Assembly (NCBI GenBank): GCA_021399445.1
Contig: JAJTUQ010000005.1
Location: 5,332,001-5,396,000 of the forward strand
DNA from: Xylogone sp. PMI_703
Lineage: Eukaryota > Ascomycota > Leotiomycetes
DNA: 64,000 bases
Reading direction: 5' to 3'
The notes under the pieces were generated by a model that searched no databases, was not told where the DNA came from, and saw nothing but the letters and a program-made list of their open reading frames with translations. Of this stretch, positions 6,725 to 62,714 are shown piece by piece (positions within the stretch are counted from its first letter, which is position 1; every line of letters starts with the position of its first letter). Made by a program: the position numbers and the translations under genes.

Positions 6725-7331
6725 ATGTCCGCCGGCGTCGAAAGTTTTCTAACCAATGTGTCCACCCTTTCTGCGATTTGGCCGCGCAACCAAACTATCT
6801 CAATTAGAATACGTGATGTTACAGTAACTTCAGTTTTCTCATTTCTTGGTGGTCTACTTATTGTAGGGTTTCTAGTTGGGTTGGTTAGGATGCTCTGTTG
6901 CTATTCCTTGGAACTAAATCTCTTGTTAGGTTACTTTTGATATCCTTTGAAACACCATACCAGATGGATCAGGCCGATTTAAAACGACAAATGACACATT
7001 TAGACAAATTAATAAAATCCGAAAAGTTCTCCACGTGGAAACAGAGAATGCAGAGATGTAGAGGGCTAGGAACGCCCGTGTCATCCGAATATCAGTGGTA
7101 GGTCTTATTAATTGTTATAGTTCTAATTCAATACCCATGCTTATGGTCAATTGCTTTTTTCTACGTAGTACATTCTGTATTTCAGCCCTAACTGATGATG
7201 ACATGGTCCGAGGACTTCCATGCAATCACTGTTACCATAAAGCATGTATAGATCCCTGGTTTAGTTATGTGCATCGCACATGCCCTCTGTGTCATCGTAT
7301 ATTCTATACGGAGGGAAGCTATGGTAATTAG
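6725..7331 (+). CDS. Membrane RING-H2 zinc-finger protein (putative E3 ubiquitin ligase)
   Basis: Proposed exons 6725-6883, 6964-7097 and 7169-7331, about 151 residues. The second intron (71 nt, GTAGGT...TACGTAG) is well supported because it splits a Cys codon and restores the first zinc ligand pair: CTFC, then LPCNHCYHKAC and TCPLC, giving C-x2-C...C-x-H-x2-H-x2-C...C-x2-C. An N-glycosylation site (NQT) precedes a hydrophobic segment at about residues 34-55 (SVFSFLGGLLIVGFLVGL), so this is a single-pass protein with a cytosolic RING, the plan of ATL/RNF13-like ligases. The first intron (80 nt, weak GTTAGG donor) is less certain. The substrate is unknown. Confidence 0.75.
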
Positions 7332-8497
7332 TCATATTGTTAAGTATTAGATATATGAGGGTCCCATATTCCTGAGTATCGAACTTAAAATACTATTCGA
7401 TCTATGTCAGGGCTTAGACAATGGTATCAAACGTGTAATAATATGTTTTTTCTCCTTTACCAACGAAATCTTTTTTCAAGGGACTGAGTACATAGGATAG
7501 ATGCAAGCTAATAGACGACGAGTGTGGTAGTGATAGCAGCCAACTTGGCGATTAGGCTGTAGCTAGATAGTAGGTTGCGTTTCAAAGACAAAATGATAAC
7601 TAAAGATTGTTCTCTGAAGCTCCTCAAACAAGAACAACCTGTCCATTTATACGGTAGCATACCTCTAGGCCTTCACTCATGCAGAAGTTGCCAAGTCTCA
7701 TCAACTGAGGTAGTAATATGTGGTTGAGCCCTGACATTTTTTTTTGGTCCCCTTCTTTTCTTTCCATGCTTAAGGCAGTTTATAGCGTTTACTCCTAAAA
7801 CCCCGCAAGCTAGCTATTACTAATCTAGTGGGTGAAGATAGTGTTGTAGGAGTTAATCCCTGAAATATGGTTCAAGAGAAGTAATAATCTTCTCAAGATA
7901 AGCCTGTATTACGTGTCTGTTAGAGTGTCTTCAGACCGAGGAAGGCGTGAGAACACCATGATTTAATTTAATAGGCGATTTTGCCGATAATGGCGATAGA
8001 AGCGAATGGTAGGTTGCAGAATTGAACCGTAGTGTCTTATATTATAGTGATTTGATAACCTTTTACATACGGCCGTAAAAGTGCATTTGTGTTTTTTGGG
8101 TGGGCATCATATCTAGCCCCAAGCAACACCAAAGCAAAGTGAACTTCCCCGCTTGCCATTCGAGTCACGCGGAGAATTCTCGGAATCTAATATGGTCTAA
8201 TAGCTCTGGATCGAGATTGAGCAGTAGCTAAAGCCGTATATCCCAGCTCTCCCGGTATAGTGCAATAGGATCCGTCAATTGACAATAGGAGATCAGCGGA
8301 CTTTGGAGGATGCAAGTTTGAATCAGTCGAGAAAATACAGGAAGAGATTCAAGTCATGTGAGCGTTACAATATGCATTACACTATTGCTTGTTTCTCGAA
8401 TGATATTGAAACATTTGCGGAATTGTCGGTTGTCTGCTGCCGAGATAGAAAGTCTGATCAAAGTATATATTGAACCCACAGAACCTCTCGCTCCGTA
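7332..8497. other. Intergenic, no gene seen
   Basis: No supported coding frame. AT-rich, with a TATATATTG stretch about 30 nt before the P450 start codon that could be a TATA element. Confidence 0.5.
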
Positions 8498-30892: not shown

Positions 30893-31825
30893 CTTCATAG
30901 TAGACTGTACATTAACTTTCTTGAGTATCAGTGCTTTTAAGTTTGAAAGATGATTATTATATGTGGTGGCTCAGCAACAATGTACATTTTTTATATTTGT
31001 AGCTCACTAAAACGTGGCATATGATCTGTACCTGTCCTTTACTTTATATACCCGATTGTATACTATGACAGACCTCCAATGGCTCGTGATGCTGCATTTA
31101 TCATATAGTAGACCTAATGTAAATGACAGGAAGCTGTTCCTGGTTGGCTAGCTTATCTAACGATTGGCCGCATGTAGTACAGACTTCTTTTTGTCAACTA
31201 CTACAAGCCGCTCTAACCACTGCCTTATTATCAAAGATAACATCCTGAGTGCTCTACTAACTACCGAAGTTAGTTGCTGAGCATAACTCTGCTAAGTTTG
31301 TTAATTTCTTTTCAAAAATATATGGCGGGTTTTAGGTAGTTTAGGTCAGTAATATTTATTTATATTTGTTAGTAGCACAAGTTTTAAATTAAACTGCTAA
31401 GCAGGTTATATTATGACTAAGGGTTTCTCCATCGCCACTGAGACTATGCCTCTCGGTGTTCAAAGTTGGATACAACGTACCCACAACACTTGCAATGCCC
31501 ACTCTATACGGACAAAGTATACGGGTGGTATATTTCCAAGATTTGAGCGTTTCTAGTTCCGGTAATCACAAGAGGCCATCTGCAGGGTTATTTTGTGATG
31601 GGAGCCCAGAGAGAACAAATACACGTAGAGCAGAGATGGCTCGGTTATCTCGCTTATAGCTGGTTTTCAATATTAAGATGTAGAACTACAGGTACGCAAT
31701 TGCCTCAATATCACTAAACGCCCAGGTTATCGTTATCTATATATATCCTTTTTCACCTCCCAGATGGTGTATTTTTATTTTCTCTCGTATATCGCCTAGT
31801 TTATGCCAACAATACTGTATATAAA
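30893..31825. other. Intergenic, no gene seen
   Basis: AT-rich 0.9 kb. A TATATATCC stretch at 31738-31746 and a TGTATATAAA stretch ending at the start codon of the next gene are possible promoter elements. Confidence 0.5.
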
Positions 31826-32962
31826 ATGTCAATCGAAGCGGAAAACCGTATATATCCATTGAAGCAGCCACAAGATTGGAAGCCAAAGTTCCCCCGCTGG
31901 ATGCTTCAGTTGCCTGATGAGGTGGAACATCTTTCAATTTGCTACGTCGGTGTCCAGGCGAATCAACCTTTTACAAATGATGACGTCAATCATCTCAAAC
32001 CAAGAATATCTGAGCAACAGAAGTATGCAGTTGAATTAGTGGAGAATTGGTTATCTCACGGTTGTGGTGCATTTGGGCCAAAGTTGTGGGAGAAATTCTA
32101 TGTTGAATCAGGCTATGACGTTCCTGAAACCGTGGTCTGGGTGTTATACTGGGTAAACGAAGTAACTTTTCGTGAGGCTCTTGCTCGTTTGAATCTCGAA
32201 GAGATCAGCCGTTCATTACCCACGATAGGGCTTTGGCGCGAAGCGTTCACCGTACCAGAAGAACGCTTTGAAACAGTCTATTCCGGTCCAGATTACCAAC
32301 CTGGGCTGGCATCACTGCCTGGTGCTTCACAGGTTCCTCACAATTTCACTGGTTACTGGGGAGCTGCACGGGATCGGCTTCCAGCATCTGCCCGAGAGTT
32401 GTTCCGAAAAGAAAAGGAACCACAACATCCCGATACGGAAAAGCCGACAAAAGGGAAGATATTTTGCGGGAATAATGACGATGTCATGGTTCATATTCGC
32501 TCAGGGCAGTTTTGGGAACGTTGTAACCTGGAGGAAAGAGAAGCATATGAGGCAAATCTTGAGCCGGTTCTGAGGCAGGGAATGAAATATGTGGAGCTTA
32601 ATGCATTTGAGTCTGGAGACTATGGTTTACGATTTATGCGGAACCTCACTACCAATCGTCTCCTCCAAGCTGAGCAAACAGAGCCGATTTTGGGCAGACA
32701 AAGACGGGAGACTTCTGTTGCAGGATTCTATCGATCGCTCGGAGACTTAGAAAGATGGGCATCAAGTCATCAAACACATCATAAGATATTCCATGGGGTT
32801 CACAAACATGCGCTCCAATTTGGGCAGGGTAATTTCAAATTCCGCTCCTGGCATGAGGTGTGCATTCTACACCCTGGGGAAGCATCATTCGAGTATGTCA
32901 ACTGCGAACCGAGGACGGGTCTCCTGCCTTTTGTTGATATACCCGCTTCAAGCCACCTTTGA
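31826..32962 (+). CDS. Heme-containing aldoxime dehydratase (phenylacetaldoxime dehydratase family)
   Basis: Intronless, 378 residues. It matches the heme dehydratase family across its length: an N-terminal WMLQLPDEVEHLSICYVGVQ, VLYWVNEVTFREAL, GYWGAARDRLPASA, and the region RFMRNLTTN...SVAGFYRSLGDLERWASSHQTHHKIF, where the family normally has SxxxLExWAxxHPTHxxIF with catalytic and heme-side histidines. Here HQTHH replaces HPTH. A C-terminal FRSWHEVCILHPGEASFEYVNC follows. The reaction is R-CH=N-OH to R-C#N plus water, using a ferrous heme that binds the substrate nitrogen. Length is normal (about 350-380). Two nitrilase genes 5-8 kb downstream can take the nitrile further. Confidence 0.92.
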   Translation: MSIEAENRIYPLKQPQDWKPKFPRWMLQLPDEVEHLSICYVGVQANQPFTNDDVNHLKPRISEQQKYAVELVENWLSHGCGAFGPKLWEKFYVESGYDVPETVVWVLYWVNEVTFREALARLNLEEISRSLPTIGLWREAFTVPEERFETVYSGPDYQPGLASLPGASQVPHNFTGYWGAARDRLPASARELFRKEKEPQHPDTEKPTKGKIFCGNNDDVMVHIRSGQFWERCNLEEREAYEANLEPVLRQGMKYVELNAFESGDYGLRFMRNLTTNRLLQAEQTEPILGRQRRETSVAGFYRSLGDLERWASSHQTHHKIFHGVHKHALQFGQGNFKFRSWHEVCILHPGEASFEYVNCEPRTGLLPFVDIPASSHL

Positions 32963-33555
32963 AGAGAAGTCTAGAATAGTAATACTATTACGAACTACAG
33001 CTATGCTCACCAAGTGCGCTCGCAACTAGCCGCCATTTTCCATATTTCGTCGTACTCATAATAAATGTTCCTCATCAAAGAGAATACAGTGGGGCTCCTG
33101 TTCATAATTTCCGTGCCTCTCAGAATAGCCATATCTGACTTACATTTTGAGCACCAGATCATTAATGTTCGTGCAAAGATATTGATCTATAACCATTTTA
33201 AATTGCCAAATTTGAATACTAGCAACGGTGCAGTCTGAAGTAATTTAGACATTTCATCCACCCAAACTAAACTATTATACTACTTCATTTCCAATTAGTG
33301 ATAATCTCTTTTGATAATCTATGATATTTAGACCACAGCTCCAAGATCGTGTTAAAAATACACCCGCACCTGAGCTGATGAACTTATATGAGCCCCTGGC
33401 AAGCTAGAAAACAGGATGCTCAGTTCCGGGGCGGGTATAGCGGGGAGTTGGTGGATGCTGAATAATCCTGACATAGTGTATCGCTTCCCCCGCTTAAATC
33501 GCCTACAATAATAAGGCTGGAGGACCTCCTATTCTTGGACTATCCAAAATCATTA
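32963..33555. other. Intergenic, no gene seen
   Basis: Probable 5' region of the zinc-cluster regulator gene. No other feature. Confidence 0.5.
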
Positions 33556-35570
33556 ATGAGTGAGAAAAAGAGAAGAAGACGCACCGGCTGCCTCACCTGC
33601 CGCGCGCGGCGGATTAAGTGTGATGAGGGAAAGCCTACATGCCACCGCTGCGAGGCAGCTAACATCATTTGCGCAGGATACCAAGAGAAGCGTAATGTTA
33701 GGGTGCGACAGCCTAAACAACGTCCGGCGACATCGTCGTCCCCTACGACAGACTCTTCAGCTACACTCAAAGCCCATGGACTAGGTGTCTCCTATTCTAA
33801 TCCGTCGCCTCGCGGAGCAAGCTTACCACTCATGGCGTTTCCTAGCAACCCTCGACCTGCACAGCGGCCACATGCACGTGCTCGCAATATCTTGTTTTTT
33901 CATCAGTTCCTTTTCCGAACCCTGCCAATTTTGTTTCCTGTGGAGCATCTGTATTTCTGGCGGGAAAGCATCTGTGAGGAGGCATGGGAGACGGAGTATG
34001 TCTATGATTGCGTGATGGCTCTAGGGGGTATTCACAGGGCCTGTCTCCTGATGTCGATGTTGAGCGAGAATGACAGAGTTCGGGGCCTAGACACAAAAGT
34101 CATTGCTCTTCAGGCTTACACTGCAGCTCTCCAAGGACTGTCACAACAGTTACAAGTGGCTGAGAAGTCATTGCATATTCTCGTGGGCAGCTTACTGCTC
34201 CTAGCACATTTCGAGGTAATCAACCGCTTCATGGGTTCCGAATAGACAAATTGATTATTCGATTTACTAACTTCAAACAGTGTTTCTGCGGAAACATCCC
34301 TGCTGCTCTACGCCATGTAAATGTCGCCAGTCATTACTTTTCGTCCATGAAGTCCGATAACCGTGATGAGATACGACCATTCCTAGTCCCTATCGAGACT
34401 TGTCTTCAAAATTTCTCGCTCACTTTTCGAATCGGTATTCCATACCCAAGGCTAACGGTATTTGAGCACCGACCGTACGTCTCACCATCTAACGAAGCCC
34501 CCTCCGGGTCGACTTTGCTGCAGGGCATATTGAACCTGGTATCAGCAAAGTCTGAATGGGAAGATCTCATTTGGCAACCGCCAGTAGATCTTACATCAGT
34601 AACATCTGATGAAGTACGTGCATTCCAAATGGAGATTAGGAGCTGGAAAGTGAAAAATAACCATGTTTTGCCTCATTTGGATTCTGATGGGAGTATTGAG
34701 AGCTCCCTAGATGTTATGAACAGCACGATCGACGAACTGCCCATTCCTCCTGAGCCGCATTCCATAACCTCTGTACAAATATGTCTAGTTTTGGCTGTTT
34801 ATAATTTTTGCATGGCACGAACCACGTGGGCCTTGATTCTTCTGGGCGACGGTTCCGAGAGGACTGAGCGTGCTGCGTATCTCTACTTTTACGAGGTAAT
34901 GCGTTACGCTGCAACAATCAGCAACAAATTACCGCATAAAATGGGGCCCCAAACGTTACCAGACGATATCGTGCTTCAGAATATTCATAAATCGAATAGC
35001 GAGTATGAAGCTCTTTACGTCCCATGTGAAGTCTTGCGAATTGGGTTCTTGCCCATCTTATACATCACTGGGCAGTGTACTCCTCAGCCGAAGTGGCTCA
35101 AATGGGTTATAGAGCAGCTGAAGGAGATTGGGCAGGAAGGAATCTCCAGCGGTCAGGCGTTGGCAAAATGTTTGGAGGGCTTACAGTCCCTTGAGTTGAA
35201 CAGGGATATCAACTCACTAGATCGGTTTCCATGCCCAGCAAGCCGCATCATTGCAGTGCTGATTCCCGAAACAGACGGTCATGGTTTTGTTGCGTATTAT
35301 GCCAGGGCACGATCCGGTATGCATCAAAGTCACATTTTGTATCACACTGTGGCTCAGTCTCGATGGTCAAGACGATCGCATGACGATGAAAGCCAGTCTA
35401 ATATCGAGATACTCGACCAAACACGCACAGTAACAGCACCATTCACTCGGTACTGGCTCCTACACCAGCCAGTATCACACCAATGGATGGCGTGGTCCAT
35501 GGATGTTCAGTTCGACTTAGACGGTGCACTGCACGACCACATTAGTGGCAGCAACCTGTCCCCTTCATAG
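33556..35570 (+). CDS. Zn2Cys6 transcription factor
   Basis: Exons 33556-34215 and 34281-35570, about 649 residues. The 65-nt intron has GTAATC and ACTAAC signals and keeps phase 0. I start at ATG 33556, since the frame reaches further upstream only with a TTG. The zinc cluster CLTCRARRIKCDEGKPTCHRCEAANIIC is preceded by a basic KKRRRRTG; the six Cys spacing is C-x2-C-x6-C-x6-C-x2-C-x6-C. There is no obvious leucine zipper after it. Residues about 110-250 onward match the fungal-specific middle region (FLFRTLPILFPVEHLYFWRESICEEAWE, CVMALGGIHRACLL). Its place between the aldoxime dehydratase and the ALDH/nitrilase genes makes it the likely pathway-specific regulator. That is inference. Confidence 0.9.
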
Positions 35571-36231
35571 GATGCGATGAAAGGGTAATATTTGTATACC
35601 TAGTTGCCTGTTAAACCCTCGTTGATAAAATACAGTGTAAATGTATAACATATTGGGTGATTTAATTAAAATTCTCAAAATATACCTGGATATATTAGAT
35701 GGTTCATGTCCCACATCAGTCGAGGTGTTGCATGCTTACGAGATTTTGCATGCACCGCTACCTGTCAAGCTTAGGCGCGTTAATGTAACGTATAGTTAAA
35801 GAGATGTAGCCTATCTAGGAAGTGAAAAATAAGTGATTTGTTTGCGGAGTATCTAATCAGAGAATACGGCTGTTAATTATAAGGAACAAAGTACACAACT
35901 GGACAACTCTGGAATTGAAATATCCTAGTATTGTATTATTCACTAGTGAGACGGGTTAGCTAGTTCAAATATGTAAATACATAATTGAGTACATCTTCAC
36001 AAAGGACTTTGGAGATATTGCAGGTTTATGAAAGCCGGCGACTATGCCTTTAATGAGATCCATTATGATTAATGGCATTTATTATCACAGTCTATATATC
36101 TATAACATCAAGTAACCTCGCGCCAACCAGACTTCATGAGTTTTTCCACTTCTATCCATGCTAGTTCTCGGTGATGTCTTGAGCAAATAACATAAGCATG
36201 TCGTTTACCATAAAATATAGTTTCGCGTTCC
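35571..36231. other. Convergent intergenic region
   Basis: AT-rich 3' flanks of the regulator and the ALDH genes; nothing else seen. Confidence 0.5.
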
Positions 36232-37830
36232 TCAGAAAAGAGCGGATCCAGTACGGATGCGAACGCTCTTTACTTCAGTATAATTGGCAAGGGCATATTC
36301 CCCTAGCTCTCGACCATTACCTGATTCCTTATAACCGCCGAAAGGCGTCTGTTGATGGAACATATTGTATTGGTTCACCCAGACAGTTCTATTACATTGT
36401 TAGCTCTTGTATAACTAACACTCCCGGCGGTGTTTAAAACTCACCCAGCTTCTAGAGCTTTCGATACACGAATAGCAGTGTTCAGATTTGTGGTATGAAC
36501 GCCAGAGGCGAGACCATAATTCGTATTGTTTGCTAGCTCAATTGCTTCTTCCTCAGTTTTAAACTTTTGAATAGTACACACGGGACCAAAGATTTCTTCA
36601 CGAATGATGGTCATATCCCCATGGACATCTCCGAAGATAGTCGGTTGGATGAAATAGCCTGAGTCCCCATGTCGTCCTCCGCCGGTAATCACTGTGGCTC
36701 CATCCCGCTTACCAGACTCGATGAATCCCATGATTCTGTCAAACTGTATTTTACTCACTACCGGGCCTAAAGCTGAGTCAGTCTCAAGAGGATCTCCCAC
36801 TTTAGTTGCCTGTGACCGTTCTCGGAATCTCTCAATAAATCGGTCATAAATGCCTTCTTGAACCAATATCCGGGCTCCAGCTGCACAGATCTGGCCCTGG
36901 TTCAGGAATATGCCATGATTTACCCAAGAGATTGTGTCTTCTAGGTTTGCGTCATCAAAAACAATGTTTGGACTCTTCCCCCCTAGTTCTAATGTAACCT
37001 TCTTTAGATTACTATCAGCAGCCATCTTAGCGATGAGTCGGCCGACTGTTGTCGAACCGGTGAAGGCCACTTTATCAATATTCATGTGTGAAGCAATAGC
37101 GCTGCCAACGACTCGGCCAAGGCCTGGAACAATGTTCAATACTCCAGGTGGAAAGCCGGCCTCCTTAACTAATTTGGCGGCATAGAGAGCGCTAAGTGTC
37201 GTAAGTTCTGCTGGTTTCAGGACCACAGTATTGCCAGTAGCGAGCGCAGGGCCAACTTTCCAGCTCCACATAATCAATGGGACATTCCATGGAATAATAG
37301 CACCACATACCCCGATCGGCTCGTGATGTGTGTAGTCAAGACTGTCAGAATCAATATCGATCACTTTGCCATGGACCTTATCAGCCCAGCCGCCATAGTA
37401 ACGTAGGCAATCAGCTGCACTTTGGACCTCAAATTTGGCCACCGAGATAGGCTTTCCACTATCCAATGATTCCACCGCGGCCAGAATATCAAGGTCTCGT
37501 TCAAATAGTTCTGAGAGTGTTGTCAAGAGCCGGCCTCGTTGTGCTGTGCTAATTTTGGACCATTCCGAGCTTTTTAGGGCCTTGCGAGCAGCGGCTACCG
37601 CGATGTCAACATCCTTATCTGTTCCTTCGTGCACATGGGCTATTAGCTTTTCGGTAGCTGGGTTCAATGTCTCGAAGGTCCTGCCTTCAGAACCTTTAAC
37701 GAATACATTATTGATGAATCTAATATCAGAGTTAAATCATCGCTTGTCTCAAGAATGGCTGGGACTTATACAATCCAGTTGGTTGTTCCCAGGATGCAAC
37801 AGGAGTTGTTATGCGTTGAATAGTTGCCAT
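36232..37830 (-). CDS. NAD(P)-dependent aldehyde dehydrogenase
   Basis: Three exons on the minus strand: 37772-37830, 36445-37719 and 36232-36388, giving 496 residues, the standard ALDH length. The first short exon ([19 protein letters not shown]) and the last one ([23 protein letters not shown]...) join in phase through 52- and 56-nt introns. Motifs: [30 protein letters not shown] (Rossmann), [13 protein letters not shown] (general-base Glu), [14 protein letters not shown] (nucleophile Cys) and EEIFGPV (second Glu). It oxidises aldehydes to acids in the cytosol. It is divergently arranged with nitrilase 1 across a 479-nt shared promoter region. It could remove the aldehyde formed by oxime hydrolysis, which is inference. 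Confidence 0.94.
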
Positions 37831-38309
37831 TTCTCTTGGGAATGTTCTTCCTCGCTCAATTCCTTGGTAAAAAGATATCAAAATATACTATTTGTACTCG
37901 AGAATAAAGCTCTTTCTATAGATTAACTCTCGGGGTTGGGCATTCTCAAATATATAAGTACTGGGAACCATAACAAGACACTACTCTCTGATATCATATA
38001 ATATGCTCAGTCCGATATCATATGCTTGCGGAGTATTATTATGCCCCATAGTTTAGTATGGGGCAGTATGGGGATCTCGGGGATACTGTAGTGACGGATA
38101 GAATAACCTTCAGTTGTTGTAAGCGAGCTTAGCGAGGATTAGCATGTCTTTTTTATTAATATTCATATTGGTTCGGCCGGGTTCTCTAACCGCCCTCAAT
38201 CACTAGATTTTGTTTCCTTGGTATGTTTTCTAAATCTTGATAGATATTTCGACACATATTCCTCACACTCTGCCTGTAGAGCAGTCAATAGCATCTAGTA
38301 TAAGTGATA
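37831..38309. promoter_or_regulatory. Shared upstream region of divergent ALDH and nitrilase 1 genes
   Basis: 479 nt between two divergent starts. A repeated GATATCATAT word occurs at about 37990 and 38017. A CGG triplet near 38175 could be part of a zinc-cluster site. No coding frame is supported. The regulatory role is inferred from the divergent layout only. Confidence 0.45.
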
Positions 38310-39363
38310 ATGACAAAGACTCTAAAGCTCGCGGCCGCTCAAGTCCAGACGGTTAGCAATCCTACCAAGGCCCTTGATATTCTCAAGACAAAAGTTCAAC
38401 AAGCCGCATCTCAAGGAGTGGATTTGATCCTCTTCCCGGAAGTTTTCATAGGCGGCTTCCCTCGGTTATGCCAATTCGGTGCTGCGGTCGGCTCTCGTTC
38501 ACCATCCGGATACGAACAGTACCTGCAACATACCAAGGGAGCTGTTGATCTAGGTGACACTCCAACAGGTCAAGGAGAGAATTGGGTGTGTAGGTCATTG
38601 CCCATCTCGTCTAGCAAAAGGTATCGAGGAGACGGCACGCGGGAGCGCCTTGAGCAGATAGCAAAGGAAACAGGAGTCTTCCTAGTAGTTGGTGTGCTAG
38701 AAAAGGCTGGTGGTACATTATACAGTTCCTTGGTATATATCTGTCCTAGATTAGGAACTATTGGCAAACGACGTAAAGTCATGCCCACAGGTATGGAACG
38801 TTTAATCTGGGGTCAAGGGAGTCCCAGTACACTTCGTGCTGTTACAACGACTATTAAAGGCGTGCATTTAACTCTTGCCGGTATAGTCCATCATTTAATT
38901 TTGTCAAGTTATATGCTAATTAGTTTTAGGAGCTTTATGTTGGGAGAATTGGATGCCTCTTCTTCGTCAGAGTCTGTATGAGCAGAAGGTCAATCTGTTC
39001 TTAGCGCCTACCGCTCATGCCACAGAAATATGGGCTTCCTTAATGCAGACAATTGGAGCTGAGAGCAAGGCGTTTGTTCTCACCGCAATACCACGTGTGA
39101 AAGCCAACGAGTTACCAGAATGGATTACAGAAGCTAGGGAGAGAGGAGATGAGGTAGTCAGTAAAGGAGGGACGATGATAGTGGGGCCTGTTGGCCAGGT
39201 ATTAGCAGGGCCAGTCTGGGACAGAGAAGATGAAATGTTAATTATTGATGCTGATTTTGAAGAATGTGAGAGGGGTTTGTCGGACTTGGCCACTTCTGAG
39301 AATTATATTGGGAGAGATCTGTTTCAGTTATCTGTTGATGGGCTGGAGTTAAGTCCGCCTTAG
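38310..39363 (+). CDS. Nitrilase (nitrilase 1)
   Basis: Exons 38310-38880 and 38930-39363, 334 residues. The 49-nt intron splits a Gly codon and creates LTLAGALCWENWMPLLR, which holds the catalytic Cys. Catalytic triad of the carbon-nitrogen hydrolase fold: Glu in LILFPEVFIGGF, Lys in [19 protein letters not shown], and Cys in LCWEN. The start is ATG 38310 (MTKTLKLAAAQVQ). It hydrolyses R-CN to R-COOH and ammonia, and the protein usually forms large spirals. It is paralogous to the intronless nitrilase 2 located 0.7 kb downstream. The IPRVKANELPEWI segment differs from the usual SANQ-type sequence that the second copy keeps, so specificity may have shifted. Confidence 0.92.
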
Positions 39364-40037
39364 GCTTAGAAGGTTCTTAGAAATGAAAAATCCGGAGAGA
39401 TAGATTCTTCTAATTACTATGTCTATACATTATTAGAAGATATATACATTTTTTCGCTAATCCGCCTGGAAACTTCTTTACGTACTTGGTGGTTTAATGT
39501 CTTAATAAGCTATAACAGCAAAGAAGCAGTTCAATGCATTTATGGGACATCAAGTTCAGTAATGTCTGTCTAATAGTCGTAGTATTAAGAGATTCACAAT
39601 GGCATATCCGATTAAGCTTATGTGGAGGTTGTACGGAATTCCATGACTATGGAGGTTGGCCGACTTGACATGGCAAAAGTTGAGCCATTCACATATATGT
39701 TTCACTTCTTTCTAATCCACTATTACGTCATAGGTGATCACTAGTCTTTTGTACAAACTACCTCAACCTAAAACAATTCATCTCTGTAATACTTCCATAA
39801 AGCCGTTTTCATCGTTTATGTCGCATATCTCGCCTAGATCGTTTACATGATGATACTCTCGATTTTCTTTATGGATCCGCGATAATATGGCACACCTCTA
39901 ATCCTACTAATACTTATAATTGAATAAATAGACCATGAATGATGCTCAAGCTGGGGATTCAAAGAGTCCATGCCGTAACGTGCAAATTCTCCCGGTACGT
40001 GTATGTCTAAGAAGTTACGCCATACAAACACTTTACG
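39364..40037. other. Intergenic between the two nitrilases
   Basis: 674 nt, AT-rich, no gene. It must hold the promoter of nitrilase 2. Confidence 0.5.
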
Positions 40038-41039
40038 ATGCCAAAGGTTCTCCGAGTTGCCGCTGCACAATGTCGCACCTTGGATAGCACTGCTAGTACG
40101 CTCAAGCAGCTCGAAGATAAAGTCAAAGATGCTGCCAGCAATGGAGTAGATTTAATTCTCTTCCCAGAAGTCTATCTCGGCGGCTATTCACGATCAGCAA
40201 CTTTCGGTGCTTATATCGGAGAGAGAACAGCCCATGGTTATGAACAATATCTGAGATATTTCAATGGCGCAGTTGACTTGGGAGACACACCCGAAGGAGC
40301 AGATGATGATTGGGTCCACCGGCGGCTATCCGTTGGCGACAAGTCGCTCCGAGGTGATGGCACTAGAGAAGAGCTTGAGCGTATTGCACGAGAAACTGGC
40401 GTTTATATCGTAACCGGTGTGCTTGAGCGATCTGGAGGTACTCTCTATTGTGCCGTTATTTATGTTGACCCTGAGAAGGGAGTTGTAGGGAAGAGAAGAA
40501 AGGTCCTCCCGACAGGAAGCGAGAGACTGATCTGGGGTCAAGGCCATCCACGAACCCTCCGCGCCATCAGCACTCAAATCAAGGGCGTTAATATCATCCT
40601 TGCCGCAGCAATCTGTTGGGAGAACTATATGCCTCTCTTGCGCCAGGCTCTATATCAGCAAAACGTGAATCTTTTCCTCGCTCCAACTGCCGATGGACGA
40701 CCAACATGGCTTCCACTTATGCAGACGATCGGATTTGAAGGGCGAACATTTGTAGTTAGTGCTAATCAGGTTGTTCGTGATGACCAGTTGCCAGACTGGA
40801 TATCCGAGAATCCACGCGAAGGGAAGTTTATCAGTGGTGGTGGATCTTGCATTATCTCACCGTTTGGGAAAGTGCTCGAGGGGCCCAGTTGGAATAAAGA
40901 TGGTGATATCCTTATTCATGACCTGGATTTCGAAGAATGTGAGAAGGGCCGGTTGGATCTGGACGTTGCAGGATCATATTCGCGCAACGACTCATTCCAC
41001 CTATCCGTGGCTGGCCTTGACCTTAGCCCTCCTCCTTGA
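40038..41039 (+). CDS. Nitrilase (nitrilase 2)
   Basis: Intronless, 333 residues, starting [20 protein letters not shown]. Triad: Glu in [13 protein letters not shown], Lys in [19 protein letters not shown], and Cys in [17 protein letters not shown]. The tail [18 protein letters not shown] and [17 protein letters not shown] are normal for the fungal nitrilase group. The DNA codes continuously through the point where nitrilase 1 has an intron. Expected product: carboxylic acid and ammonia from a nitrile. With the aldoxime dehydratase it completes an aldoxime-to-acid route. Confidence 0.94.
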
Positions 41040-44199: not shown

Positions 44200-44285
44200 C
44201 GGCAAATATCTGCCATGCCACCCAAAATAAATTTTATATCTCGCATGCCACCCAAAATAATTTATATATCTGCCATGCCACCCTA
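44200..44285 (+). repeat. MULE left terminal inverted repeat
   Basis: Begins CGGCAAATATCTGCCATGCC. It contains three tandem-like units of ATCTGCCATGCCACCC or ATCTCGCATGCCACCC, spaced about 34-36 nt, likely transposase-binding sites. Confidence 0.93.
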
Positions 44286-44419
44286 AGAATATTTACTTAT
44301 TTATGTATTCAGTTAACATCCTGTGTGAGTTATAGACTATTAGACCCTAAGAATAAATAAAGCTATATACAAGATTCTAGTTACCTGTATCTACAGTTAT
44401 AGTATCACTCTCATTAACC

Positions 44420-46138
44420 TCAATTGTTTGCCAGTCTCGTGCTCTCTCTCCACGACCATTTTTTGGCTATAGGTAAGCCTGTACAACGTCTGGTATTATG
44501 ACCTAGCTGTCCACAACCTCTACACTTCCTTTTTTGACGATTCCAAGCATTCTTTCTGACTCTTTTTGTCTTTGGCCGTCCACGAATCTTGCAAAGCTTG
44601 GGTAGGAGTACATCAGGGTTCGAAGGCAAGTCTTCTATAGAAATTGGCTTCATAAAAGTCTGATAAGTCTTGCGGTAAGACTTAATAGTATATGACCAAT
44701 GAAAATAAGCGTATGGATCCTCTACCTCAAATCTGCAAGCTGTAATTGCATGAGTACAAGGCCCTAAATATTCATCGAAGTTCATACAAGTACAAGTTCT
44801 CTCTTGAAGGTTTACAATGAACTTGGAACCAGAATCAGGAACTTATACTTGATATACCCCATTTCCTGACTCAAAAACACAATACCGGTTGCTAGATTTG
44901 AGGCGGTCTTTGAACTTGAGAAAAGGAGTATCTGCAAGTTGTGTACTTTGTTGTAAGCGGTGATATCTATCATATATTGTCTTCATAGTAGTAGACCAGA
45001 TAGCATCAACCATCTTCAATGGAGAAAGAGACCGAAGTGGATTCCAAATTGAATTTAAAGATTCTACAGCATTTGATGTATTATGGCCAAACCGTGGATA
45101 TAGAAAGGCATACCGAGCCCAAGATTCATGACAGATATTATCGACATAAGTTGCTGCAGCTTCGTTCTCTTCTTTCAGTGCTACCAAGGCTGTCTTGAAT
45201 AATTGCTCTGTCTTTGCCCAAGCACATTGCCAGAACAAAGGTCGGCATTTGACCCCATATCACTGTTGTACATTGTCAGCAATATGCTGACAACAATGAG
45301 TTACTACAACTTTTGGGAAAACTGTTTGAAGTGATGTAGCAAGGCCTTTTTCTCTATCAGACATAAAGACAAAGGTCTCACTATCCATCCATTGAAAACA
45401 ATCTTTTAAAAACTTGCAATACCATGTCCACCATTCTTTATTCTCTGTAAAAACAAGTGCCCATGACAATGGTAGGATATTGTCATTAGCATCAATTCCT
45501 ACAGCTATCATAAGCATCATCTGAAACTTTGACTTTGTATGGCAAGCATCTAAAGCTACAAACTTCCTAAGCCATCGGCATGCTTTTTTCAATGCTGCTG
45601 GAGCAAAAGCAGCTGCTCGAAAATGGCCTTGATCATCTATATCAAACAAAGCTTCATTCTCAGGATCTGAATCTTCTAGTGTTTGCATATATGCTGGGAA
45701 TTTTGCAAAGCAATCAGCTTCCTTGCCTTCAATTTCCTCTAATAGCGCCTGCTTAAGACGATGAGCTTGCAGATAACTAATAGTATTGCTAAACTGCAAA
45801 CGTTCCGTGGCTTGAATCTGAGCTGCCGTCAAAGTCCTGTCATTGACAAGAGAAGCTCTGTGATAGTCTTTTAAATACCATAAAGCTGAAGATTGCTTGT
45901 TTTTATAGTGATTGGCAGGACTACAAGAATGAGCAATAAGAATGGTAATAACAACGCCCTTTTTCTTAAGCAAAGAGGCTCTGATCCTGAATTTACAAAC
46001 AGGATCTTTGCATACAACAATATGACGGCGACAGTCTGACTTATACACTTTGTAAGACTCTCCTTCGTCTAGTACATGACGATTAATAGCATTCCGGGCC
46101 TCCTCAATAGTAGAGAACAAGTCGTTGACTGTAAGCAT
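44420..46138 (-). pseudogene. MULE transposase with SWIM and CCHC zinc fingers, two nonsense codons
   Basis: One continuous minus-strand frame of about 572 codons (MLTVNDLFSTIEEARNAINR...) interrupted only by a TGA at 45260-45262 (after NVQQ) and a TAA at 44843-44845 (after GVYQV); no frameshift. N-terminal FAR1/FLYWCH-like region (YKVYKSDCRRHIVVCKDPVC), MULE DDE core (FVALDACHTKSKF, FMSDREKGL, THCCQHIADN), SWIM finger (CTCMNFDEYLGPCTHAI) and a terminal knuckle CRGCGQLGHNTRRC. As read it cannot make a full protein. Read-through, trans-complementation or recent inactivation are the options. Confidence 0.88.
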
Positions 46139-46213
46139 TGCGACAATGATAATATATTAAGATAGAATAGCTTTCAGATCAAAGGTTGATTGAAAGAGCG
46201 GTGTAAAAACTAG

Positions 46214-46299
46214 TAGGGTGGCATGGCAGATATATAAATTATTTTGGGTGGCATGCGAGATATAAAATTTATTTTGGGTGGCATGGCAGATATTTGCCG
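46214..46299 (-). repeat. MULE right terminal inverted repeat
   Basis: Reverse complement of 44200-44285. Confidence 0.93.
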
Positions 46300-54618: not shown

Positions 54619-54689
54619 CTGCAGGTGAGTCGCACTTTACGTTACCTGCATAGTAGGGTTTTCGCTGGCGAAATGTAATTCAGGCGGGT

Positions 54690-55807
54690 GATATGTATCT
54701 CATGGGACTTGAACCTGATGCTCGCAGCATTTGATGCTGGATACTGCAAAACGGGATCGGATGCAAATTATGACTCCGTCTACCCCGATCCTCTTCCCGA
54801 TGGCTACAACAGCTCGGATTGTGGTACTGTTAAACCTCCACGAACCCCCGCTATCACGTACGCATTTGATGAAGCTTCCTACTCCGACGCTTATATTGAG
54901 CGCCAGTGTCTGGAGTTCCTCAAACTTGGCCTTCAAGGCACAACTGTACTGACCGGGTCCGGTGATAGGGGCTCTGAGGACCAGCTGGGAGAATGCATCG
55001 ATTTGGATACAGGTACGCCGAATGCCACCAGTAGTCGTTTTGCTTCTGTCTTTCCCGCTTCTTGTCCTTGGCTCACGGTCGTCGGGGGCACCCAATTACA
55101 GCTAGCTAATCGGAAACGGAGTGATGGAGCTATTCCCCCGGATGAGGCATCACTGCAAGATAATGTGACAATCTCAGGCAGAGCGTTCAGTCACCATTTC
55201 TCAGTACCGAGGCACCAGGCCGGTCTCCCTAAGCATTTACTTTCACAGCAGTCCAGAGCTCGAGACACATTTTGCCCACTTGTCCAGACAAGGATACTTC
55301 AACCCGCAAGGACGAAGCTACCCAGATGTATCTGCCCTGGCTCTAGGTTATCTAATCATCATGTACGGGGAGTATTATAGTGTTAAAGGGACTTCTGCTT
55401 CCACACCTGTTATTGCATCGATGATAGCGCGAGTAAATGATGCCCGGTTGCACGTTGGAAAGGGCACGATAGGATTCATAAACCCCGTCTTGTATGGTTT
55501 CAAGGACGATATCACACGTGACGTAAGGAATGGTTTTAATAGCGGCTGCGGTGTAAGTGCATTCCTTGCTATCAAGGGCTGGGATGCCGTTACGGGTTTG
55601 GGGAGCGTGGATTTTGAGAAGTTGTTGGAGGTGTACGCCCGGTTGCCTTGTGGCAAATCAAGTAGATACATAATAGAAGATTTCAACTTGATCTTTAGTC
55701 TTGGCAAACTGTCTGGACTGGGTAGTACCTATGAAGTTCAGGCAAAAGACCTGTGGATATTCAGATGCCAAGATAAGCCGGTTACAAGTAACCCGATTAC
55801 ATTCTAA
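54690..55807 (+). pseudogene. Sedolisin (tripeptidyl-peptidase S53) remnant, 5'-truncated and frameshifted
   Basis: Homology begins within the catalytic domain (LNLMLAAFDAGYCKTGSD, TPAITYAFDEASYSDAYIERQC, LGLQGTTVLTGSGDRGSED, PASCPWLTVVGGTQL), so the pro-region and the Glu/Asp catalytic pair are missing. A frameshift near 55215-55240 moves the match to ELETHFAHLSRQGYFNPQGRSYPDVSAL. The nucleophile box YYSVKGTSASTPVIASMIARVNDARL and the Ca-binding end GWDAVTGLGSVDFEKLLEVYARLP are kept. The usual stop after this is lost, and the frame runs on to 55807. Family members are secreted acid proteases. This copy cannot be functional. Confidence 0.85.
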
Positions 55808-58585: not shown

Positions 58586-59750
58586 TCAAGGCCAATCTGG
58601 CAATATGAGAGAGTCTTTTGCAGGATATAGGCTTAGCTTAGCTGGAGCGTACTGATATCCTGTCTTTGCATATTGCATAATTGTGTCAAAATTCTTGCAC
58701 TGGTGATTGCGAGGGAAGTCTGGGAACACGCGGGCTGGATACGAGGCATTTCTGCTATCTTTAGCCCAAATAAACGGAAGGACAGCAGTATCAAAATTGC
58801 ACATCAATACGAGGCGGAGCATATTCACGCAGTGGCCTGTCGGAGAAAGACTATTAGTAACTGTTTCGCTTATGGGAGCTTCAATTTCTCTGAAGGTGCA
58901 CGACAGCTCCTGAAGAAAAGTCTCACAGAGCGTTATGGCCAATTTAATATTAGTCCTCACTTACCAATATGTTTCTGAATGATGTCCTCTTCATTATTCC
59001 AAGCACCGTGCCTCAATTCTTGATATCTGGGGGCATTAAAGTATAGACCTTGTCGTAGGAGGTCCTGGAGTCGCGATTAGGCTTGCCTTAAGGTCTGAAA
59101 GAAGTGTCTCGTACTAGGCAATGTAGATTGTGCAGGCCTTCAATAAGGACTGGGTATCCTAATGCCCCATCTTTTACTTCAACACTCACCCTGTCAAGCT
59201 GGATACCTGACTTCATGGCTTCATCTGGAGTGAGAATTATTGCAGGAACTATTATGACAGTGAGTTAGAGACTCTGAGAAGTGCCAGTGTCATATTTATT
59301 GTAAGACACTTACGATCTAATCCAAGGTCACTCCATGCCTTATCTACCTCTTGGCTTGGACTTTGCCTGTATATTCTATCTTTATCACTATCTCCGAAAA
59401 GCGTACTATTGAAGAACACACTTTCGTATTTAACATCTACGTCGCGTAGAAGAGGAGCTGCTAAGAGTTGGTAAATGGTTTCCTTCAAACTTGAAAGTTC
59501 ACTCACACCACATAGAAGTGTGCCGGGCACAAGTTGAATTTAAATTTTGTGGAGCTGAAGATCGTACGGCGAACAAGTAAGTCATCGCATTGGTGAAGAG
59601 GAGTAGAGAAGCACCGAAAGCCAACCAGAGGAACCGTGGCCCAGTTTGATTACTTCGAGAAGTGTCATGTTCCCAGTCTTCACTCTCATTACCATCTCTG
59701 TATTTTGATTCTGCAAGAAAAGGCTTGGTTGATTCTGTTGAGGTATCCAT
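58586..59750 (-). CDS. UstYa-family (DUF3328) peptide-cyclising oxidase
   Basis: Five exons on the minus strand: 59507-59750, 59314-59460, 59115-59248, 58965-59064 and 58586-58836, totalling 291 residues with all phases consistent (introns 46, 65, 50 and 128 nt). A hydrophilic N-terminus is followed by one membrane helix (PRFLWLAFGASLLLFTNAMTY). Next come STCARHTSMWSAPLL, VKYESVFFNSTLF and SPSQEVDKAW, the usual DUF3328 order. Both signature metal-binding motifs are present: HNLHC in VLIEGLHNLHCLDLLRQ and HIGHC in IQKHIGHCVNMLR, each completed by splicing. The C-terminus has the conserved NHQCKNFDTI. In ustiloxin, phomopsin and asperipin pathways UstYa proteins form ether or C-C bonds on Tyr-containing core peptides. 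The repeat-peptide precursor lies 0.9 kb away. Confidence 0.92.
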
Positions 59751-60611: not shown

Positions 60612-61049
60612 CTATGGAGAGAGGGTATAGCTGTCATTGTCACCCAAGATCTCGGTCTCAGCCCTCTTTGCCTTCTTTGGGAAGAGAGTATAACTGTCGT
60701 TATCTCCCAATATCTCCGTCTCAGCCCTCTTTGGGGAAAGAGTATAGCTGTCATTATCCCCGAGGATCTCAGTCTCGGCCCTCTTTGGAGAAAGAGTATA
60801 ACTATCATTGTCTCCCAAGATCTCGGTCTCAGCTCGTTTTGGAGAAAGGGTGTAGCTGTCATTATCCCCTAGTATTTCAGTCTCGGCCCTTTTTGGAGAA
60901 AGAGTATAGCTATCATTGTCCCCCAGTATCTCCGTTTCAGCCCTCTTTGGAGAGAGGGTATAACTGTCATTATCCCCTAGTATCTCACTCTCAGCCCTTT
61001 TTGGAGAGAGCGTGTAACTGTCGTTATCCCCCAAAATCTCGGTTTCAGC
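60612..61049 (-). repeat. Tandem 54-bp coding repeat, eight units
   Basis: Contiguous units of 18 codons (one of 21). Many third-position differences between units (AAC/AAT, GAC/GAT, AGC/AGT, TAC/TAT, CTC/CTT) leave the peptide unchanged. Confidence 0.95.
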
Positions 61050-61178
61050 TCTCTTCTCATTTGCTGTGGAGATATTAGACCATACCTAACTTTGGGGGGA
61101 GCACTGACCGGCAATGATAGGTGCTGCAGCTGCAAATGTGAGCACGCAAGCAGCGGTCAAAAGATGAAAGGTTTTCAT
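60612..61178 (-). CDS. RiPP precursor with signal peptide and eight Kex2-bounded repeats (UstA-like)
   Basis: Two exons on the minus strand: 61109-61178 and 60612-61063, 173 residues. The 45-nt intron (GTCAGT...CCACAG) splits an Ala codon. Exon 1 is exactly a signal peptide (MKTFHLLTAACVLTFAAAAP, then IIA). Exon 2 opens NEKR and then carries eight copies of AETEILGDNDSYTLSP joined by KR. Variants: copy 2 has AESE, copy 7 ends FPKKAKR, and copy 8 ends at the stop. KR is the Kex2 site used in the secretory pathway, and each unit has one Tyr, the residue UstYa enzymes act on. This is the plan of ustiloxin-type dikaritin precursors. Released peptides and final product are unknown; SYTL or NDSYTL would be the cyclised part by analogy. 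Confidence 0.92.
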
Positions 61179-62063
61179 ATTGGATACTGAAGAAGTAATA
61201 AAACTTGAGTTTGTAAGTTAAACGATTCTTGTTGAAGACCTGAATTGGTTTCTGGCTTTCTCTCAGACAGTCGTGGACAATGTTGAGTTTTATATAGGGT
61301 GGGATCTAGTAGCTCTCCAACTGCCAAACATACCCTACGAGCAACTGCAGCATAGAATGCCCATCACGTCTTTGTAAATGGTGAGAATTCGCGATCTTAC
61401 GTTACAACACATATCTCACTGCAGTTCAGGTTCGGTTTCGGACTCCGGTCATTGCTAATACGGTACAGGGATTGGAGTTCCCAAAATGGTAATTATGCTC
61501 TCATGATAGAAATAATGGTTCAGACAGGATTTAATCCAATACAGCTTTCCGACTAAGGACACTGCAAGGATTTGAAAGCTTTTATTTTACAGTAAATATG
61601 ATCTAGCCGGCATACTTTGCTAATATATTTCCTCTCACCTGCAGAATATTACTGGGAATGTATTCCATCCAATAATACAACTTATTTCAAGACCTTGTTC
61701 ATTTTGTAATTGACGAAACTAGGAATGGTTAGGCGTAAAATTGTGTGAGATGGTCCGTAAGCAAATAGACTAGAGAATATATAGAATACTCACCCCTATT
61801 TCCACCGACATGACGTGTCATTGTAATTGAGTGGTGGAAGGCACTGAGAGGAAACTGGCAAGTTGGTTGTGTATGCCTAAACTCACATCTCATTATTGAC
61901 CATTTTCTCTTGCAGCCCACTTCTGTATCTATATTTGGCTGTTATATCAACGGGATATCGGCTCACCGTCCTCGGATAACTTTTCGTGAGTTCTTTCAGG
62001 TAACTTAACTATTATCTTTGTTGATGAAATATTTAGAAAGGAAACCAAATTAAATCTGAGAAT
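61179..62063. other. Divergent intergenic region of the RiPP locus
   Basis: 885 nt between the precursor start and the second HxxHC protein start. It has no gene and contains the precursor TATA box. The frame at 61729-61920 is not supported. Confidence 0.55.
61288..61296 (-). promoter_or_regulatory. TATA box of the RiPP precursor
   Basis: CTATATAAA on the minus strand, about 110 nt upstream of the precursor ATG, at a distance normal for a highly expressed fungal gene. Inferred from position and sequence only. Confidence 0.55.
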
Positions 62064-62714
62064 ATGGGAAATGAAATCCATCCCACGGGCAGACTCGAAA
62101 AACTAGAGTACTCTCGGCTCGATTCTGAAGATCGAGATGAAGAGAATACTCAAGACACCAAGTTATCCTCCGGCCCAGTGATGAGGCAAAGAGTCGCTAT
62201 TGCGATATCTTGCGTGGTGATCGCGTTGATATTCGGGGGCTTTTTTGGTGTGCTCATTCGCAACACAGGCTCGAAGCCTCGCCCGGAGATCCTCACTTGT
62301 GGCACCACCAGCGATGAAGCTCGTGCTCGCGGATGTATCATGGAGCCTATGGTGTATGGTTGGATGCCGAAGGAATGCTACTACGGTGATCTCACTAGCG
62401 AGTATCATCCCTTCGAAGATCGAGCGTGGTATACATCGGACAAGTATGATGAGTTGGTGACACCAGAAGAGCTTTGGGCTGGAGCAAGGGAGAATGTTTA
62501 TACACACCATTACCATACTCAGCACTGTTTTTTCCTAATTAGAAAACTCTCCAGGGCAGTAGACCGGAGGGAGCCTTACTTAGATCACAAGAGCCTGGAG
62601 GTCCCTCACTTGGATCACTGTGCAAGAGCTATCTCAGAGCGATTTGAGTCAACAAATAGTTCTAATCGTGTTATACTGGGGTTCTATAGGTGTCTACCGT
62701 TACAGTGGGAGTAG
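62064..62714 (+). CDS. UstYa-like single-pass membrane protein with two HxxHC-type motifs
   Basis: Intronless, 216 residues. Cytosolic N-terminus (MGNEIHPTGRLEKLEYSRL), one membrane helix at about residues 45-67 (VAIAISCVVIALIFGGFFGVL), then a lumenal domain: LTCGTTSDEARARGCIMEPMVYGWMPKECYYGDL, WYTSDKYDELVTPEELW, HYHTQHCFFLIRKLSRAVD and PHLDHCARAI. The pairs HTQHC and HLDHC match HxxHC, the signature of UstYa-type oxidases, but the Cys-rich start (CG...GC...CY) is that of a separate, uncharacterised fungal family. Read divergently from the RiPP precursor, it may be a second tailoring enzyme. After the second motif the tail is shorter than usual, with a frame that may have lost a 3' part. Confidence 0.75.
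   Translation: MGNEIHPTGRLEKLEYSRLDSEDRDEENTQDTKLSSGPVMRQRVAIAISCVVIALIFGGFFGVLIRNTGSKPRPEILTCGTTSDEARARGCIMEPMVYGWMPKECYYGDLTSEYHPFEDRAWYTSDKYDELVTPEELWAGARENVYTHHYHTQHCFFLIRKLSRAVDRREPYLDHKSLEVPHLDHCARAISERFESTNSSNRVILGFYRCLPLQWE

Follow-up and report, generated by a model that had tools for sequence, protein, structure and literature searches.

A dikaritin-type peptide precursor locus with two flanking HxxHC-motif genes in the leotiomycete Xylogone sp. PMI_703

The window analyzed here, a 64,000-nucleotide stretch (C21:5332001-5396000) of the 50.1-Mb Xylogone genome, carries on its minus strand a gene (60612..61178) for a peptide precursor with a signal peptide, a short pro-region ending in KR, and eight 16-residue units. 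We predict two exons, 61178-61109 (70 nt) and 61063-60612 (452 nt), separated by a 45-nt intron (61064..61108, minus strand) of the form GTCAGT...CTAAT...CACAG. Translation would start at the ATG at 61178; the donor GTCAGT begins at 61108 and the acceptor CACAG ends at 61064. The spliced frame spans 173 amino acids plus a stop codon, with its terminus exactly at 60612. Exon 1 encodes MKTFHLLTAACVLTFAAAAPIIA plus the initial base of the next codon; exon 2 finishes ANEKR and then encodes the units, yielding a protein that consists of MKTFHLLTAACVLTFAAAAPIIAANEKR followed by the eight units. This intron was picked for its good donor, its branch-like CTAAT box, and the intact signal peptide and first KR that it leaves; nine further GT-AG pairs likewise open the frame. 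The splice is thus a prediction from sequence, and the signal peptide was called by eye. The predicted coordinates, strand, 45-nt intron, and overall plan agree with those first described in an earlier note on this DNA. As read from the bases alone, an 885-base divergent region (61179..62063) separates the precursor from the gene on its other side, with a TATATA at ~61296, 118 bases upstream of the precursor ATG.

Six of the eight units are exactly AETEILGDNDSYTLSP. Unit 2 is a T3S variant (AESEILGDNDSYTLSP), and unit 7 is an S15F variant (AETEILGDNDSYTLFP) followed by a longer linker, KKAKR. KR occurs at all seven unit junctions (once as KKAKR) and again after the pro-region. Unit 8 stops at the stop codon without KR, so that the earlier description of eight 16-residue peptides each ended by KR stands for the eight units and seven junctions and fails for the last unit; the single Tyr that it ascribed to each unit is present in all eight. 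Tandem Repeats Finder scored the array at up to 518. Across the 28 pairs of units, mean pS is 0.76 and mean pN 0.018 (pN/pS 0.024), and 1, 2, and 15 of 16 columns vary between units at codon positions 1, 2, and 3, respectively (hypergeometric P ~1e-8). This concentration of varying columns at the third position indicates that the array is a maintained coding frame. Because silent sites are near saturation and the peptide is almost constant, the whole unit is under strong selection, and the units are old copies, each kept to nearly one peptide, and not the result of fresh slippage. Origin as a chance repeat was rejected on the codon-position bias and on the empty controls of the repeat detector described below. 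Residues E4 to L14 (EILGDNDSYTL) are constant across all eight units, and conservation among units therefore does not mark NDSYTL off as a core. Either the flanks are recognized by enzymes or the entire 16-mer matters.

A UstYa gene (PF11807/DUF3328; 58586..59750, minus strand; 290 amino acids), deposited as F5884DRAFT_470306, lies on the same strand as the precursor, with its start codon 861 bases past the precursor stop. Our five-exon model (59750-59507, 59457-59314, 59248-59115, 59064-58965, and 58836-58586) reproduces all 290 residues of protein P0017, whose NCBI name is that of a Xylogone sp. PMI_703 protein, one acceptor having been set by reference to P0017 itself. Two of the exon frames match PF11807. 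The protein carries a pair of HxxHC motifs (HNLHC, residue 169; HIGHC, residue 206) and an N-terminal apolar run of 14 residues. Its closest outside relative, OIDMADRAFT_167208 from Oidiodendron maius Zn, is 56% identical. Comparison with PDB sequences gave no match at E <= 1, and a structure model built from three sequences (mean pLDDT 31) was discarded.

On the other side of the precursor, in divergent orientation and 885 bases from its ATG, lies a single-exon gene of 216 amino acids, here gene B (62064..62714, plus strand), a second UstY-like gene that belongs to no Pfam family. Unlike the UstYa protein, neither the precursor nor the gene B product was found among deposited proteins (gene B is listed without a source). 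Gene B also has paired HxxHC motifs, HTQHC at 151 and HLDHC at 182, and an N-terminal apolar run of 22 residues; a structure model (mean pLDDT 75) places a predicted N-terminal membrane helix at 39-68 and further helices at 151-167 and 180-191. That model returned 36 PDB matches, none at E <= 0.001 (best 0.67), and six pattern matches to gene B in viral_contigs yielded no confirmed case. A protein search gathered 16 proteins, gene B and 15 relatives, of which the sole named one, L207DRAFT_586045, comes from Hyaloscypha variabilis F. Both HxxHC motifs are present in 15 of the 16; the second motif of P0016 ends in Y. PF11807 was listed for none of the 16 at a maximum E of 10 (above ~0.1, most matches are removed by the HMMER filters), and no member had a credible Pfam match, the best (E 0.026) being to unrelated families in one member each. 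A comparison of four proteins with NCBIfam yielded no meaningful match.

The gene-B family and UstYa may nevertheless be distantly homologous, as suggested by motif, spacing, genomic context, and weak profile matches, though structural comparison lends this no support. The two motifs are 31 residues apart in P0001, 29-31 apart in the 24 rows of the gene-B alignment A3, and 30-39 apart in the 7 UstYa rows of alignment A4; A3 consists of the 16 rows of A1 minus P0008 and P0016, plus 10 rows from the Xylogone genome that were picked among open frames already containing HxxHC, which biases motif counts there. In a comparison of the two family profiles both HxxHC motifs align, at weak probabilities of 7.8% and 17.4% (P 0.0044 and 0.0014). 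One gene-B relative, L043:8378-9070, matched PF11807 below threshold (17.1 bits; cut-off 25), and the gene-B-type genes L043:754-1434 and L028:5249-5980 gave no match in the same profile search. Our literature searches recognized no paper on this family. The phomopsin cluster includes further proteins of unknown function that might be of the gene-B kind, which could lower the family's novelty.

PF11807 has at least 108 matches in the Xylogone genome, corresponding to ~81 genes that form 54 groups. With 0.4 kb padding, the zones within 2 kb and 5 kb of these genes take up 0.73% and 1.4% of the genome, respectively. Gene-B-like proteins gave 42 matches, 41 after merging and with gene B included, or at least about 41 genes. 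Twenty-six of these 41 copies, at 15 distinct loci, lie no more than 5 kb from a PF11807 match, none overlapping one; copies at the same locus are not independent, and we give no P value for this fraction. By the same within-5-kb measure the counts were 0/50 for Methyltransf_25 (best 50 of 121 candidates), 0/26 for Pro-kumamolisin peptidases, and 4/9 for tyrosinases (34 and 13 matches, respectively, merged by eye for the last two). The gene-B family is therefore a regular partner of UstYa in this genome, as tyrosinases are.

Further precursors were sought with a detector that requires at least three similar KR- or RR-ended units. It returned three matches in 262,416 real bases, none in the reversed bases, and none in 20 codon-block shuffles. 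Over 43 records (346,171 bases, overlaps counted) it placed precursors at four places. The three beyond the locus described here have unrelated units and adjoin UstYa and/or gene-B-type genes. At L028 (6850-7341, plus strand; unit SSGTAVGPVAEEVVETYDKR) both gene types are present. At L038 (1968-2243, minus strand; unit DEDGIRAGDFKR), where, judged by eye, a short intron likewise follows the signal peptide, there is UstYa only. The third, at L018/L043 (L043 2418-3005, plus strand; unit KTQSAPFRVEAENVKR and variants), sits between two gene-B-type genes at 1.0 kb and 5.4 kb (L043 = C20:216500-226400), and the nearest PF11807 match is more than 270 kb away. Between this precursor and the second gene-B-type gene we also observed a CDH-cytochrome/DOMON-like frame (6441-6782, plus strand; 25.6 bits, just below the 27-bit cut-off) together with an apolar frame with a sub-threshold DUF2427 match (7196-7567, plus strand), a possible source of electrons for copper oxidases. 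The detector placed precursors in 2 of 16 UstYa-bearing stretches and in 1 of the 9 gene-B loci L018-L026; the 8 short UstYa loci (L001-L008) held none. Their absence from the remaining 14/16, 8/9, and 8/8 counts against the dikaritin-type reading, these counts covering the examined loci, a subset of the UstYa groups.

DUF3328/UstYa (PF11807) has been described as the class-defining enzyme of dikaritins (PMC12048977), and a working definition of dikaritin-type loci calls for a DUF3328 gene close to one that encodes a signal peptide and, with kexin sites between them, repeats of at least 10 residues (PMC9632046). By both definitions, as given in these sources, the locus is dikaritin-type (ust-RiPS): a signal or leader sequence is followed by eight KR-separated units, and the adjacent gene encodes P0017 with PF11807 and both HxxHC motifs. 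The dikaritin-type assignment made in the earlier note is supported by the adjoining UstYa gene, by the second HxxHC protein, and by the recurrence of the plan next to such genes at three further genomic sites; UstYa and gene B, which were absent from that first reading, decide it. Under an older description with multiple DUF3328 proteins, the locus offers one PF11807 gene together with gene B, which gave no PF11807 match and has the paired HxxHC behind a predicted membrane helix at its N-terminus. Measured against the older five-gene definition, the locus is without a tyrosinase, any PF00264 match on C21 lying ~2.6 Mb or more away, and, as far as tested, without a methyltransferase, none having been found nearby with PF13649 (Methyltransf_25), one of several models, among the best 50 of 121 candidates. 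No S41 peptidase was found near the precursor, and these absences weigh against the dikaritin-type reading. Tentative candidates for a transporter or peptidase of the cluster are MFS-type frames at 52.3-53.9 kb and, past the window end, at 67.9-69.3 kb, and a tripeptidyl-peptidase-like frame at 54679-55377 (54679-55804 on the plus strand), ~3 kb from UstYa, which is possibly incomplete and has no listed Pro-kumamolisin match. The precursor also has the signal peptide (by eye) and the repeats bounded by Kex2 sites that characterize KEPs.

Among known systems, the asperipin-2a cluster of Aspergillus flavus (aprA, aprY, aprT, and aprR) is likewise small, combining a precursor with a UstY homologue and with no tyrosinase among the four genes described (PMC6514808). 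Its core, FYYTGY, contains several Tyr residues, whereas the Xylogone unit has one Tyr and the locus two HxxHC proteins; in contrast to asperipin-2a, the Xylogone locus showed neither a reductase nor a dedicated transporter. UstA, the ustiloxin B precursor with 16 copies of YAIG, and PhomA, the phomopsin precursor with eight repeats and the core YVIP, share with ours a signal peptide, repeats, acidic residues before Tyr, KR sites, and UstYa-type proteins (PMC6514808, PMC6339444, PMC7329392). Both pathways depend on a tyrosinase (UstQ/PhomQ) and include a methyltransferase, whereas neither gene was found near the Xylogone precursor (for methyltransferases, among the best 50 of 121 candidates), nor were the S41 peptidases common to phomopsin-type clusters found at the locus. 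The Xylogone unit has Y-T-L in place of Y-x-I. Its DSYTL resembles the known motif EDYXI (PMC6339444). KEPs have the same formal features, a signal peptide and KR-separated repeats; of 7878 KEP genes, 22% have DUF3328 genes nearby, as here, mostly as the next gene, and Tyr is reported in 65.6% of the repeats of DUF3328-associated KEPs compared with 38.2% of others (PMC7329392). The dikaritin-type loci of Venturia inaequalis, a different species, answer to the same working definition (PMC9632046).

The earlier note had also taken the core to be undescribed, and within the scope of our searches it is. A search with the precursor against 5.8 billion proteins scored 7991 candidates, none at E <= 1, repeats and low complexity limiting its power. 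We found no paper containing the unit in the searchable literature, which leaves supplementary KEP unit lists and most subscription papers outside coverage; NDSYTL in a proteasome review was rejected as a chance match. We know of no characterized dikaritin with a Y-T-L link, and Leu, not Ile, at position 14 speaks against the dikaritin-type reading. The locus thus very likely represents a known kind of fungal peptide, with a unit sequence that these searches found nowhere else.

Our leading interpretation, to which we give a probability of about 80%, is that this is a small dikaritin-type (ust-RiPS) cluster whose UstYa oxidizes the 16-mer released by Kex2. As genes for probable copper oxidases flank the precursor, the fungus very likely makes a chemically modified small peptide, probably ring-shaped. 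Our starting point is what is observed at the locus: the gene structure, the repeats, the selection on the units, and the neighbours with their paired HxxHC motifs. Kex2 cutting, UstY cyclization, and DUF3328 copper chemistry come from published work. Kex2 is believed to cut precursors of such a plan, which are cyclized with UstY proteins (PMC6514808, PMC7329392). CctR, a DUF3328 protein, is described as a binuclear copper enzyme: a dimer associated with membranes, it binds two coppers through HxxHC(x)nHxxHC and requires O2 and electrons (PMC12435403). If expressed, as we infer, the Xylogone precursor would be taken into the ER by its signal peptide, and Kex2 in the Golgi would cut after KR, freeing up to eight 16-mer copies, the 3-Ser and 15-Phe variants among them, from which a carboxypeptidase would remove KR. 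Membrane-bound UstYa, with gene B as partner or second oxidase, may then use a two-copper centre and O2 to oxidize the unit at its single Tyr; further proteases would trim the ends before the product is exported.

Oxidation at Tyr12 is expected because the unit has one Tyr, preceded by acidic residues, with Leu at +2, as in EDYXI. The reaction would most likely join the Tyr ring oxygen (or a ring carbon) to Leu14 at its beta or gamma carbon, Y-T-L replacing the Y-A-I of ustiloxin, or to another nearby residue. Calculated m/z values ([M+H]+) of the linear form and of the form with one cross-link (loss of 2 H) are 1724.7861 and 1722.7704 for AETEILGDNDSYTLSP, 1710.7704 and 1708.7548 for the T3S unit, 1784.8225 and 1782.8068 for the S15F unit, 712.3148 and 710.2992 for trimmed NDSYTL, and 580.2977 and 578.2821 for YTLSP. 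In our judgement the Tyr12-Leu14 cross-link is possible, though well short of an even chance, and another Tyr12 link within DNDSYTLSP slightly less so; otherwise there would be some other oxidation or no modification. The cyclic product around NDSYTL proposed in the earlier note is, like these links, an interpretation of the unit, and analogy with YAIG and YVIP makes a Tyr12-to-Leu14 link (core YTL...) no less likely than an NDSYTL core. The product might perhaps act against competitors or in host contact.

Several other explanations were weighed against the dikaritin-type reading. The 16-mers could be freed by Kex2 and remain uncyclized, as a linear secreted KEP peptide (a hormone, effector, or defence peptide), with the UstYa neighbours belonging to another pathway. 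Such a peptide is in keeping with the 78% of published KEPs that have no DUF3328 gene among their 15 closest genes (PMC7329392), and conservation among units extends over the entire 16-mer instead of being confined to a short core, as expected of an active 16-mer. However, the core of UstA is also flanked by conserved motifs (PMC6514808), each unit holds a single Tyr, and UstYa and the HxxHC protein flank the precursor at less than 0.9 kb each, when the 2-kb surroundings of PF11807 genes make up 0.73% of the genome; we therefore regard a linear peptide as unlikely, though it deserves more weight than the explanations that follow. A cluster that is silent or decaying, with an intact precursor and no product, would be compatible with the dikaritin-type explanation of the gene content; in its favour, no methyltransferase (best 50 of 121 candidates), tyrosinase, or S41 peptidase was found nearby. 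The pN/pS among units and the open frames of UstYa and gene B speak against it, and we consider it improbable.

Tandem repeats behind a signal peptide would, taken alone, also fit an unprocessed repetitive structural protein of the cell wall or surface, but the KR at every junction and after the pro-region, the polar, Cys-free 16-mers, the oxidase neighbours, and a C-terminus (...TLSP) that forms no hydrophobic anchor make this highly improbable, and we rejected it on the junctions, the missing anchor, and the neighbours. Least credible of all is an alpha-type mating pheromone precursor. Its general plan of signal peptide, Kex2 sites, and repeats is alike, but pheromones of Leotiomycetes are reported to carry two conserved Cys residues (PMC6339444) and none of the units contains Cys, on which ground this reading too was rejected.

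The dikaritin-type precursor adds a previously unseen unit, in a leotiomycete, to a family that includes the tubulin-binding toxins ustiloxin and phomopsin and the host-selective toxin victorin (PMC6514808, PMC9632046). Gene B, moreover, draws attention to a broad family, with ~41 copies in one genome, whose members are probably copper oxidases and matched no Pfam model. We tentatively propose, at somewhat less than even odds, that the UstY copper oxidases have a second branch, one without a Pfam family, to which gene B belongs and which acts on Kex2-repeat precursors, sometimes without a DUF3328 protein. If gene B does act on such precursors, genome mining based on DUF3328 undercounts fungal RiPP clusters; if the two-branch proposal is true, surveys keyed to DUF3328 would miss a class of fungal peptide clusters, and the product of AETEILGDNDSYTLSP may come from an oxidase pair drawn from both branches.

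Elsewhere in the window, 44200-46299 holds a Mutator-like transposon with 97-nt terminal inverted repeats (96% complementary) and MULE and SWIM domains. In addition, genes for a haem-containing dehydratase (PF13816), an aldehyde dehydrogenase, and two carbon-nitrogen hydrolases (nitrilase-like) are grouped at 31718-41036, a possible aldoxime-nitrile pathway.
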